Both the position numbers and the translations under genes were made by a program. From assembly GCA_030272155.1 (NCBI GenBank), contig CP126205.1, positions 2,096,501 through 2,160,500 on the forward strand: a stretch of DNA of 64,000 bases. The letters are read 5' to 3'. Shown piece after piece: positions 2,308-60,511 of the stretch. This stretch comes from Tetradesmus obliquus. Taxonomy: Eukaryota > Chlorophyta > Chlorophyceae > Sphaeropleales > Scenedesmaceae. The first letter of the stretch is position 1, and the number at the start of each line of letters is the position of its first letter. The notes below the pieces were generated by a model, which was not told where the DNA came from, searched no databases, and saw only the letters and a list, made by a program, of their open reading frames with translations.

Positions 2308-2588
2308 TCAGTTTAGCGCCGCATTCTGCTGCAAGCTCTTCACAGTCCCCGCCGCATCAAACTTGCACACCACATCATACAGGCGCCCTCCCAGGCATGC
2401 TGCAACCTCTGGATGTTTCACCATGCCAAGCTTCAAGCTGTCTACTGTGAACTTTGCCCTGAGGTTTGTCTCTATGGCGCGCCCCATGCCTTCTAGCACC
2501 AGCAGGTCTGCATCTGCTGCCTCGGCTGCTAGCTCAGCAGACACCTGGCAGCAGCAGCAGTGTCAGCAGCAGCGGCAGCGGCAGCAGC

Positions 2589-2647
<59 letters not shown>

Positions 2648-5600
2648 ATTCAACAAAACATGTGACAAACTAAACAAGGACGGGACCAGCACCATGCTAG
2701 GAAGCCACAGCAGCAGGTTTTCAACAGCAGTGCTGTGCTCACAGCCGCATCCCTGCAATCGAGCTTTCAAAACAACTTGGAGGATGACTACTACCAGCAG
2801 CTAGCAGCTGCCGGAACCAGCATCCCGGCAGCTACGCAGTCTGCGTGAAAGCGAAATGCGCACAATAATCAAGCTGAAGCAACGCAGCACAGTAGTTCAG
2901 CGCACCTCCCGCAAGTCGATAACAGGCAGGTCGTTGCCGCTGTTCATCACCCGCAGCTGGCCACTGCCCCAGGCCTGACCCAGCAGCGCATCTTGCGCTG
3001 CTGCTGCCGCCACCAGCGGCGCAAGCTCTGCTGCTGTTATGTCGTTGATGGTGGCGCCGTTGTTGGCTGCCAGAATCACCTGAAAGCAAAACACAGAAGC
3101 AGCTAAGTTGAATGTGAACAGTAGACGATTCTCTGTTTGCCCTGTTTTGGCAGCATTCAGCCTGCGGGGAAACTGCATCATCGATAGTCACAAGGCCTGA
3201 CTCTCCTAGGGCTGCTTGAACCTTGCTGCAGAACACGAATCACAGCAGAGCTGCACACCTGCGTGCCCAGTTTTGAGAGCTCCCGGGCAAAAGGCAGCAT
3301 GCCCAGCAGCACATCTTCCCCGGCGTTGCCAACATACAGCTTACACAGTGCATACTGATCCCTGACACTATTTGAAACTTCTTGAAAGTTTCCGCACCTG
3401 TGTGCAAAGTTTTGTGAGCTCCCGTGCAAAAGGCAGCATGCCCAGCAGCACATCCGCCCCGGCGTTGTCCACAAACACCCCTCCCGATACCAGGCTACCT
3501 CAGCACGGGCACAAGCCGCTGCGCTGAAGTTGCTGCAGCAACAGCTGCAACAGCAGAGTGCCCTGCTGGGAATCTGCATCATGCCTGATGCAGGGCTTGT
3601 TTTGATGGGGTGCTGCTATCACGCCTTCAGAAGTTCAGCAACCAAAAACCCAGCAGCGCACCTGCGTGCTCATTTTGGTGAGCTCCCATGAAAACGGCAG
3701 CATGCCCAGCAGCACATCCGCCCCCGCATTGTCCACAAACAGCTCACATAGTACAGAGTGATCCCTATTAGATTGCAATCTTCCGCACCTGCGTGCCCAG
3801 CTTGGTGAGCTCCCGCGCAAAAGGCAGCATGCCCAGCAGCACATCTGCGCCCGCATTGTCCACAAACAGCAGCGCCTTGCGGTACGGCTGCGCCCGGAAG
3901 CGGTCCAGCACTGCATCTAGATCATCCACCACCTGCACATGTAGTTTGTTGCAGCACAACACAAGATGTGCATTAAGCACAACGAAACAGACGCTGTGAG
4001 AGGGAGTAGAACTGCAGTTAAGTCATCATCCACCATCAGCGCAGAGCTGGTCCAGCAAAAAAGCAGAGCGGCATGAGCTGCGCAGTGGACGCAGTTGAGC
4101 ATGCAGAACAGTGTTGTCCACAAACAGCAGCGCCTTGCGGTAGGGCTGCAGCCGGAAGCGGTCCAGTACGACATCCAAGGCATCCACCACCTGCCCATTG
4201 CACGTAGGTTTTCGGTTTTGGTTTGAGCTTGCCGAAGAGCGCATAACAAGACGGCAAATCAGCACATTGTGCAAATGTAAAGCGCCAGAGATGCCGCAGG
4301 AACAATGCTACAACACTTGAAGCTGCTGCTGGCGCAGTTGCACACTGCAAGCCGCAACGGTACTCAGCCCCATTCTTTGCCGCTGGCAGACCAGATGATC
4401 AACAATCCCCCAGGCCTACTGCTGGCGCTGCCTCGCACACTGCTTGTCAGTTCTCTAGCTGGCTGTCAGACCCTACACCTAGACTGCATATCCGCTTTTA
4501 GCAGAAATTCCAAACCCTACACCCTCACCCAGGGCCGTGGCAGCAGCTGTTCCAGTGCACAGTGGAAGCCAGCACCTTGGCCCGACAAGGGCTGAGTGCG
4601 ACACATATACTTAACCACAAGTCAAACACAGCCAAAAACTGCACATCCATATGAAATTGCAGACTTGAAATGCACTCTCTCACCCAGGGCCGTGGCAGCA
4701 GCTGTTCCAGTGCGCAGTGGAAGCCGGCACCTTGGCCCGACAAGGGCTGAGTACGACACATCTATCTAACCAAAAGTCAAACACAGCCACAAACTGCATA
4801 TCCATATGAAATTGCAGAACTCAAATGCAGTCTCTCACCCAGGGACGTGGCAGCAGCTGCTCAAGTGCGCAGTGGAAGCCAGCCCCTTGGCCCGACTCGT
4901 AGCGATGTGCTGACGCAGCAGCGCCCAGGTCAAAGATGTTGCCTGCAAACACGCCTCGCAGCGCTGCATTCAGCGCTGCTGTTGCATTCGGCTGCTGGTC
5001 CAGCATCTGCAGCACCTGCATGGCAGGAGGGTGGTAGCACAACAGGGGAAAAGGTGCGGCAATGTGCAGGTCGCTGACAGCGCAGCAGGGGCTGCAATGC
5101 ATGTGCAACATTCACTTACGGGGTAGATGTGACAGTTACCAGGCGGCTGGCAGCCCACACTACACAACTGCCAACATAGAAGATAGATCTACGTCGAGTG
5201 AGCGACACACTTGCCAGCATGGTTGCCAGACAAGCACCATGAAGATTGACACGGGCTTTGAAACTGTTGCAGAAACACCCTCAACCAGTGCATGCAGCAA
5301 GTCAACATCAGTAATGCATGCCCTGCTTGCGTGCTTGAAACGTGATGCTGCCTGCTGCCTGCCGTCCTGCAACCCAAGACTTGCAGGCCAACACAAATAA
5401 CACACACCTGCGGCAGCAGCTGCAGTGCTGCCTCGTCCTCTGTCTGCTTCACTGCCTTAAAGATGTCCACAAAGCCAGCGTTGTGCAAGCACTGCTCCCT
5501 GCAATTTACACAAGCACACACACCAGCAGCACTGTCAGCGCTTGATGGCTCCATTTGATTGGTAGTTGAAGCGGGAACGCAGGCGCGGGGGCGGCTTGCA

Positions 5601-58369: not shown

Positions 58370-59956
58370 GTAAGCTCAGTTGCTGCGTGACTGCTGACTT
58401 GGCAGCAGCACTGCTGCCTCGCAGGCGCACAGACGTTCGTGTCAGGTCAGCATGTTGGCTGCCTGGATGCTGCGACAAGTTCTGCATGATGCTTGGGTGG
58501 TGATGACTGTAAGAGCCAGCGCGGTGGCTTTGGCACTGTTGTTGCCCTAGAGCCAAAGCATTTGCTGGCACACTACACCCAGCAGCAGTGCACTGCAGCA
58601 CGTGCTGCTGCGGCACCTACCTGAGCGACGACCAGAACTCTTGCTCTTGAGCGCCAGAAGACAGCCGTAAATGCCATGCTATGTGCAGATCATCGTCCTG
58701 ACCCATGGCACCTGTGTCGAGTGCCGTGGTGCGTGGTCACTTGTTCGGCTTCAAAGCAGCACACATGACCTGCTACGGGGGCGTTGTCACACCAAATGGT
58801 TTGAACGATAACAATGCTTGAAGCTTTACTCTTTATGTACATCAAGGAAGAAACGTTGCTGCTCGCTGACGGATGGTAAGACAGCCGGTGAGCCCTGCTA
58901 AGTCACGTTACATTGCTGCTGAAACGTTATGAATGCTTTGTTTATCTTAGACTGCGGGATGGAGTTGACGTGAGCTTAGCACCTTATTACACAAGAACTT
59001 CCTGCGGATCCACATGAACCTCAGCAGCGAGGCCGTGCGCCTGTGGCCAGCAACGTGCACATGCACAATCACATTATGCTCAGAGTACTATAGAGCTTCA
59101 AATGAGCTCGTGTTTGGTGCAGAAGAGGGTCTTGTAATGTGAGGTGGTCATCATCAGCAACACGACGTCGTATTAGGGAAGTTCCCACGATGACCTTGAG
59201 ACTGCAAGGCAGGCGTACGCAGTCCAGCCACAAACCTTATTATAGGCTTTGCATGCTTCGGAGAAGACAAGTGGCTCCAGAGGCGACGCTGCTACCTGGT
59301 AAGGTGATATGGCTGGCGAAACTGCCAGCCTGGCAAGTTCCGGGATACCATTGCACTGTCAACATTGATGTGATCTGCTGGTGCTGGTGCTCAGCAGCAA
59401 CTATTGCGGCTGCTTCTGCCCAGCCCTGCCAGCTGCACTGACATTGCAGTGCTCCATGCCATTGCCACTCGGTCACCAAGTGCTGGTACTACTGCTGAGC
59501 AGTGCTACTGCTGCTGCTGTCGGTTGCTGGGATCCATGTCACAAAGGCAACACCAATGCTCTGACAGATCAGCTGCAATGCAGCAGCAACATTGCTCCCC
59601 ACATCATTGAGGAGGTGCCGTGCCCCTGATCAATGTCACAGCATGCTGTCTGCATCAATGCCACACGCATACGATGCGGAGTCCGCACCAGGTGGCTGGC
59701 TCTCAACGTTCAACAGCGAACTCACTTCCCTGCGCAGCGATGGCCCTGCAAGCACAACACCAGCCCATGCACAGCTGTGTCAGTCATCCAGCCTCAGCAA
59801 AGCATCCATCACGATTTGTGTGTTACACAACGGGAACACAGCCCATTCATCATTCTCTGTCGCCTCCACCTTACGATTTGTGTGTTACGCGACGGGAACA
59901 CAGCCCGTTTTCGAGCCAATGACAGGCTCATTGGGCAACCACTACAATCACCCACC
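58370..59956. other. Intergenic region, no gene recognised
   Basis: Must hold the 5' end of the membrane-protein gene on the left and the 3' flank of the ankyrin gene on the right. A 34-bp block (ACGATTTGTGTGTTAC...ACACAGCCC) is repeated at 59811-59844 and 59873-59906. The complement of TTACA near 59825 would be a TGTAA signal for the ankyrin gene. Confidence 0.4.
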
Positions 59957-60215
59957 TCAGCCCGCCTGCTGATGCAGCCAAGCCAGCACATGCGCGTGCG
60001 GCCGCTTGCGCGCTGCAGCCTCACACTCCTGCAAGTCCAGCGGACACCCCTGCCCTACCAGCCACTGCAGCACTTCCAGATGACCTTCCTGTGCAGCGCC
60101 TGCTGCAGCCCAGTGGTCAACAGGGCAGGGTGGCTGCTGCTGCCGCAGCCATATAAGTGCTGCCGGCTGGCCCCTGTATGCTGAGCATGCGCTGGCATCC
60201 ATTGTCGCCGTCCCC
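59957..60215 (-). repeat. 3' copy of the ankyrin gene last exon, with stop
   Basis: Reads QQPPCPVDHWAAAGAAQEGH, VLQWLVGQGCPLDLQECEAA and ends LAWLHQQAG-stop, almost identical to the real exon end (LAWLQQQAG-stop). It lies directly downstream. Confidence 0.95.
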
Positions 60216-60511
60216 TCAGCCCGCCTGCTGCTGCAGCCAAGCCAGCACATGCGCGTGCTGCCGCTTGCGCGTTGCAGCCTCACACTCCTGCAAGTCCAGC
60301 GGACACCCCTGGCCTACCAGCCACTGCAGCACTTCCAAATTCCCTTCCTGTGCAGCGCCTGCTGCAGCCCAGTGGTCAACAGGGCAGGGCGGCTGCTGCT
60401 GCTGCAGCCATGCCAGTGCTGCCAGCTGGCCTCTGTATGCTGCTGCTGAGCATGCGCTGGCATCCATTGGGCATGGAGGGTGCTGCGCGCGCAGCCACTG
60501 CAGCACCTGGG

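Follow-up and report, generated by a model that had tools for sequence, protein, structure and literature searches.

Introns of the sphaeropleal green alga Tetradesmus obliquus probably lengthen when local units of about 125 bp that lie across a splice junction are repeatedly duplicated in tandem; the duplications would be tolerated, and the copies would afterwards decay while some arrays grew further. The stretch in which this was studied, termed the window, is a 64-kb part of contig C15 (4,553,750 bp) in a genome of 104.7 Mb and 17 contigs. An earlier note on this DNA had described intact exons flanked by partial copies. That observation is confirmed, its reading as tandem duplication is well supported, and a bias of the duplications to splice junctions is supported in a small sample.

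Comparison of the window with itself by BLAST (E ≤ 1e-4) returned 79 direct and 3 inverted repeats, whereas three shuffled versions of the window gave none. All direct repeats have offsets below 3 kb; they occupy 18% of the window and 53% of the part between 8 and 12 kb. The earlier note had placed the pattern across positions 2308 to 60506. Unlike the gene-rich parts, the portion from 40 to 48 kb contains no direct repeat by BLAST at this threshold; Tandem Repeats Finder reports four short-unit arrays there, the largest with a 36-bp unit in 3.1 copies at 45550.

Seven loci of 3.1 kb on five other contigs (C2, C4, C6, C8 and C14), picked non-randomly by a shared CAG repeat, contain 52 direct and 2 inverted repeats in a similar layout. 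Their first offsets are mostly 115–145 bp, and the arrangement around junctions is as in the window. A dispersed element or introner would recur at many unrelated loci. A 2-kb query holding several copies (2308–4308) matched sequences elsewhere through a CAG-repeat stretch and through one weak other match, among the best candidates, which were the ones scored.

Intact exons and their partial copies

The main test was confined to three genes with 24 exons: a BTB/BACK-domain gene (OEZ86_009773; 7565..14124, + strand), a gene deposited as SET domain-containing (OEZ86_009775; 21541..26609, – strand, nine coding exons) and the analysed part, five exons, of a RIO1 kinase gene (49547..54030, + strand). 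Their exons were fixed by deposited proteins or, for RIO1, by homologues. Such external models were used for the main counts because gene finders readily label the copies as exons, which serves as a warning for annotation. Self-trained gene finding ran into a single gene with more than 600 donors and was dropped, and later versions labelled fragments as exons and were not used for these counts.

Within the three genes, 54 direct and 2 inverted matches were found. Forty of the direct matches tie a non-exonic copy to an exon (two of these are inner pieces, with the exon end outside the match), and 13 pair two non-exonic copies. The remaining match, left unassigned by the script, stops 5 bp into RIO1 exon 2 and so spans an acceptor too. 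None of the 54 is wrong-sided, covers a whole exon or joins exon to exon. Counted by position, the three genes hold 40 copies; about 14 more were recognised by eye in a gene at 3.2–4.9 kb (– strand) and in a HisIE-type gene at 28–31 kb (+ strand), so the estimate of more than 40 fragments stands. The statement that most exons are affected also agrees with the count, 14 of the 24 exons having at least one copy. Of the intron bases in the three genes, 34%, 14% and 58% belong to recognised copies. Downstream copies of the 3ʹ part of last exons, which had been said to carry stops, were found at 13902–14124, with the stop inside, and at 30806–30849, where an in-frame stop follows 20 bp on, as read by eye.

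The earlier note had also stated a rule of sides, by which acceptor-type copies lie upstream of the exon and donor-type copies downstream. The rule holds without exception among the 54 matches, and it is weaker as evidence than it appeared, since tandem duplication across an exon edge that leaves one intact exon forces this geometry. The absence of wrong-sided copies is expected of tandem duplication and excludes other layouts, yet it is no evidence of a special process.

The deposited or homologous products of these genes use the intact exons. For BTB/BACK, the hand-spliced protein of 451 amino acids equals the deposited P0121 (OEZ86_009773), with 100% identity over the query, and the SET protein P0128 (OEZ86_009775) was reproduced by an exact exon path. 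For RIO1, the record P0001 shares 96% identity with 78% of the query and covers three of the four exon–exon joins (1–2, 2–3 and 3–4), with nothing inserted, before it stops at exon 4; its name looks like that of a transcript open reading frame (ORF), which suggests a transcriptome record.

Three features support the reading as tandem duplication of a unit that crosses one junction. First, copies are direct and adjacent (79 direct to 3 inverted). Second, their spacing is regular, with a median period of 129.5 bp in 46 events. Third, the copied unit includes a non-coding part. Intron parts are related in 34 pairs of exon and nearest copy (one-sided Mann-Whitney P=1.6e-11) and in 28 copy–copy pairs (P=4.7e-8), each compared with unrelated introns. 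Single pairs are often too diverged in the intron part to tell relatedness; it is visible (z>2) in 14 of the 34 exon–copy pairs and 14 of the 28 copy–copy pairs. The cleanest pairs had suggested copies that stop precisely at the splice site, an idea dropped when the intron parts proved related.

In the proposed mechanism, a unit of about 125 bp spanning one splice junction would be duplicated locally in tandem, repeatedly. By exon definition, splicing would pair the sites of the innermost exon and ignore the outer copies. An extra upstream acceptor or downstream donor would thus be silent, making the duplication nearly neutral. Each copy would decay afterwards, and unequal exchange would multiply some arrays, two-unit steps included.

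Bias to splice junctions and unit size

To locate junctions in repeats, a scorer was trained on the three window genes; the seven outside loci are independent of that training. A score of at least 11 was reached by 36 of the 54 repeat clusters, of which 21 (out of 33) belong to the window and 15 (out of 21) to the seven loci. Random placements matched to these clusters reached it in 28% of cases (P=4e-9), and the result is stable for thresholds up to 21. Moreover, if units of 125 bp were placed uniformly in the three genes with recognised copies removed, 53% would be wholly intronic (60% when the exon part has to measure 30 bp or more), whereas BLAST found no junction-free unit in their 11.5 kb of intron. 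With the low-complexity filter off and offsets of 60–320 allowed, the extra junction-free matches are four triplet-repeat matches of 28–31 bp in an intron of the SET gene; a BTB/BACK match listed as junction-free actually pairs two copies of exon 6. The bias supposed in the earlier note is therefore supported in this sample and is not forced by geometry. It is likely that the pattern is genome-wide; beyond the window, the evidence comes from the seven small, CAG-selected loci.

These counts bear on a serious though clearly less probable account, in which random local tandem duplication occurs everywhere, exonic duplications are purged, intronic ones fade beyond recognition by BLAST and those spanning exon edges remain visible. 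Exon parts do stay recognisable longer than intron parts, and since intron parts fade faster, some intron-only units will escape detection. The rule of sides is geometric under this account as well, and exon-overlapping duplications are common in flies, according to the available text of Lehmann 2010, citing Emerson (PMC2891723). However, enough pairs (14/34 and 14/28) retain a visible intron part that intron-only units should be detectable, and none was found with the low-complexity filter on or off, triplet repeats aside, where 53–60% were expected. Furthermore, Tandem Repeats Finder gave four rows with units of 25–99 bp and ten with units of 100–260 bp, unlike a spectrum that falls with length.

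Unit size and the position of the junction near the middle of the unit are new in this analysis. The 46 called events have period quartiles of 121, 129.5 and 174.5 bp. Of these periods, 34 fall at 95–165 bp and 12 at 181–277 bp, many of the latter near twice 125. All spread figures apply within the 95–165 bp range, which was set by us; 32 of its 34 events were kept, two having an impossible exon part. Acceptor events (n=17) have a period of 122.5 bp (standard deviation 9.3) and an exon part of 58.9 bp (15.2); for donor events (n=15) the values are 127.7 bp (13.1) and 63.6 bp (11.0). The exon part makes up 0.3–0.7 of the unit in 76% of acceptor and 100% of donor events, compared with 42% of random placements, and both distributions depart from random placement by the Kolmogorov–Smirnov test (P=0.015 and 0.026). 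Exon and intron part lengths are negatively correlated (r=–0.85 for acceptors and –0.56 for donors), so that within this range length is held more tightly than position.

On the acceptor side, a second copy must carry its own branch point, so that a minimum intron part is expected. On the donor side, the centring might come from repression of a donor by exonic enhancers that lie a short way downstream of it. The lack of wholly intronic units and the centring on the junction together point to a bias acting at junctions, which would be part mutational and part selective filtering, through room for the branch point on the acceptor side and the distance between competing sites.

A more literal explanation of the same figures, duplication targeted to junctions by a physical ruler of about 125 bp, such as a chromatin particle or a splicing complex that fixes both breaks, is doubtful, and we rate it somewhat below random duplication. 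It would account for the negative correlations and for the lack of junction-free units. The sample is small and filtered by period, however; on the acceptor side, the need for a branch point would be enough to set a minimum intron part, and the size of a nucleosome fits poorly. Additionally, we know of no process that duplicates DNA by a ruler placed at junctions.

Divergence of the copies and related processes

In 17 curated arrays, each with at least two copies, changes private to the copies are distributed over codon positions 1, 2 and 3 as 58:40:74, and those private to intact exons as 1:3:13 (third versus other positions, Fisher P=0.010). The uncurated count, in which some arrays were entered twice, is 50:35:68 for copies and 1:1:16 for exons. 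Copies thus change at all positions and exons mainly at the third, which indicates constraint on the exon and little of it on the copies. The latter resemble silent decoys rather than coding exons. A view of the fragments as protein-conserved, drawn from a direct exon–copy comparison (75:61:185), was rejected once the changes were polarised.

That the copies are functional, as alternative or regulatory pseudo-exons under selection, is improbable on this evidence. Their exon parts are better conserved than their intron parts, they show a mild excess of third-position changes, and in the uncurated set 39 of 46 copies retain AG and 24 of 30 retain GT, all of which a function would explain. But retention of AG and GT is, by our estimate, about what neutral drift leaves at such divergence; the changes fall at all codon positions, unlike those of the exons, and the copies are absent from the deposited proteins and from P0001. 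An assembly artefact or haplotype echo is less credible still, and the least probable of the explanations considered. One of the seven loci (L003) does have identical units, as an artefact might, but most copies differ by scattered substitutions, at 70–98% identity, and have a codon signature unlike that of the exon. In that locus, three identical 119-bp units stand beside older copies and show a recent expansion. Some arrays, this one among them, probably grew by exchange; in another, that of RIO1 intron 3, two spacer types alternate with a higher-order period of 251 bp.

Several findings weigh against recurrent junction-spanning duplication followed by decay. The sample is limited to one window and seven loci chosen for a CAG repeat. 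No junction was scored in 18 of the 54 clusters; six of these were judged exon-linked by eye (for example, 4524–4896 and 28520–28851), and among the remaining 12 are a 28-bp minisatellite, loci rich in CAG and an array with a 195-bp unit. The 46 events hold a few miscalls; for example, 10449 and 12420 are copies, not exons, and the period at 10630 is an array average. Raw automatic side counts are less clean than the curated matches: acceptor-type copies were scored 40 up and 6 down, and donor-type copies 29 down and 1 up. In two of the ʻdownʼ cases and in the ʻupʼ case, a fragment was taken as the reference and the true exon as its copy; the other four ʻdownʼ cases lie in one CAG-rich locus (L008). 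Copies also show the mild third-position excess, although such an excess is expected where the oldest copy keeps an ancestral state. Lastly, exon parts are closer than intron parts even between two copies (median alignment score 30 versus 5 of 40), which plain neutral decay does not predict; between exon and nearest copy, the scores are 32 and 4 of 40.

Closer exon parts combined with little coding constraint call for either conversion templated by the exon or an unusually fast, indel-rich change of introns. A bolder extension, which we hold to be rather unlikely, is that a process peculiar to the lineage duplicates DNA of a fixed length, about 125 bp, with the junction at its centre, and that the decoys are then kept exon-like by exon-templated gene conversion. 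Introns would in that case be grown by, and imprinted by, their own splice sites.

Recurrent junction-spanning duplication can be set beside several known processes. Tandem exon duplication yields tandem copies of exon sequence within a gene. Here, whole-exon copies number 0 of 54, and edge pieces are all that is seen. Introns can be gained when an exonic proto-splice site is duplicated in tandem, which likewise involves local direct duplication at splice sites, with the protein kept by splicing out one copy. This process is described in the accessible part of PMC2891723, and some exons here do contain an internal CAG|GT. It nevertheless has very little probability as the source of these arrays, because it would place a copy of the downstream exon where the intron begins and one of the upstream exon where the intron ends. 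In all four introns checked that have both types, donor-type copies instead lie 5ʹ of acceptor-type copies. The introns here also pre-exist and grow, and the copied units carry intron sequence.

In Daphnia, as far as the available text of PMC4202315 goes, internal direct repeats in new introns derive from staggered double-strand breaks; they occur in 55 of 90 newly gained and 100 of 617 established introns, and those shared with exon ends are 4–12 bp long. Direct repeats lengthen introns in both cases, and in T. obliquus too they may arise through the repair of staggered breaks; the repeats mark new introns in Daphnia, whereas here units of about 125 bp sit on junctions. In Argiope silk genes, repetitive introns are homogenised and of alternating types (PMC9779670, in the part available), which is comparable to the 251-bp period of the RIO1 array. 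However, introns there delimit whole coding repeat units, whereas the copies in T. obliquus are removed by splicing and occur in ordinary genes.

Of the processes described in these sources, the duplicative gain of introns (PMC2891723) and the staggered-break repeats of Daphnia (PMC4202315) come nearest. The earlier note knew of no named description of the pattern, and none of junction-centred decoy arrays was found in the literature searched, which left out most subscription papers and is weak evidence of absence. The accessible text of PMC5966456 gives a mean intron length of 462 bp for T. obliquus, from AUGUSTUS-predicted gene models, and of 230–302 bp for four other Chlorophyceae; this fits growth of introns in the lineage and proves nothing about its cause. 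Intron lengthening is an open question, and the arrays offer a concrete source for it in a tractable alga with the longest mean intron of the five Chlorophyceae in that text (PMC5966456). They also provide natural tests of splice-site choice, with tens of duplicated acceptors and donors beside the real one that are apparently ignored.

Layout gene by gene and other repeats

The BTB/BACK gene (+ strand) has ten exons: 7565–7637, 7908–8065, 8264–8498, 8932–9005, 9504–9605, 10630–10866, 11909–12075, 12552–12659, 13047–13122 and 13563–13859. For exon 5 and for the join 10866/11909, the exact-path script gave equivalent alternatives, and the choice was made by hand. The acceptor of exon 8932 is preceded by two copies (8721..8922) that are mostly intron, with an exon part of only about 15 bp. 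Exon 9504–9605 has two upstream acceptor-side copies (9236..9431; exon parts from 9244 and 9368) and a downstream donor-side copy that is 96% identical (9673..9747). Within 9244–9605, both a copy and the intact exon contain an internal CAG|GT, and splicing between them would give the same product; this is the alternative that the exact-path search found for exon 5. Exon 10630–10866 is flanked by three acceptor-side copies upstream (10182..10541; 10199, 10316 and 10449) and four donor-side copies downstream (10950..11528). Two acceptor-side copies each precede exons 11909–12075 (11604..11835) and 12552–12659 (12317..12469). The last exon, 13563–13859, has an upstream acceptor-side copy, 97% identical over 76 bp (13435..13510), and the downstream copy of its 3ʹ part with the stop (13902..14124) is 88% identical at an offset of 264.

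In the SET gene (– strand), two acceptor-side copies lie upstream of exon 24377–24649 (24706..24909), and a donor-side copy lies downstream of exon 23947–24066 (23818..23886). Exon 23242–23427 has one acceptor-side copy upstream (23508..23613) and two donor-side copies downstream (22710–22841 and 23016–23109). A 237-amino-acid piece of the product had no Pfam match; the SET name is the deposited one.

The RIO1 exons (+ strand) are 49547–49707, 50173–50380, 51093–51221, 52369–52589 and 53136–54030. Downstream of the first are two donor-side copies (49769..49962), the first of them 86% alike in its intron part, and the second is followed by a donor-side copy that is 98% identical (50460..50515). 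Four acceptor-side copies precede the third exon (50612..51047), and an array of six precedes the fourth (51627..52317), which also has two donor-side copies downstream (52630..52809). A single acceptor-side copy lies upstream of the fifth (52930..53000).

Two further genes were read by eye. One (3256..4942, – strand), with exons at 4942–4839 and 3932–3789, presumably encodes a protein resembling the DUF89 proteins; an ORF in this region had no Pfam match. Donor-side copies lie downstream of both exons, and an acceptor-side copy is at 4198–4114. The other, the HisIE-type gene (27994..30872, + strand), is identified by a PRA-PH domain at 29867–29986. Its donor-side copies are at 28111–28305, 28760–28851, 29450–29679 and 30073–30258 and its acceptor-side copy at 29734–29781, with the copy of the last exon's 3ʹ part (30806–30849) at the end. 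In the Pfam scan of ten window proteins, five gave matches: BACK, PRA-PH (HisE), DnaJ, RPA3 and a weak ankyrin.

Several other repeats were noted in the window. Microsatellites of (CTG)n abut acceptors at 13003–13046 and 29168–29225, and another, at 28377–28434, closely precedes one; the tract in front of the acceptor may undergo triplet-repeat expansion. At 33998–35447, two direct repeats of 231 bp, 98.3% identical, stand 1219 bp apart with TG...CA ends and probably represent a small long terminal repeat element of the TRIM-like kind. An array at 38632–39202 has a 195-bp unit in 2.7 copies with 93% matches, and no splice junction was scored in it; the 28-bp minisatellite (55240–55516, ten copies) falls outside the junction pattern. 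Finally, a 259-bp duplication at 59955–60469 (– strand), 92% identical, lies near the end of what reads like an ankyrin-type gene, and the weak ankyrin Pfam matches fall in an ORF at 61443–62291.

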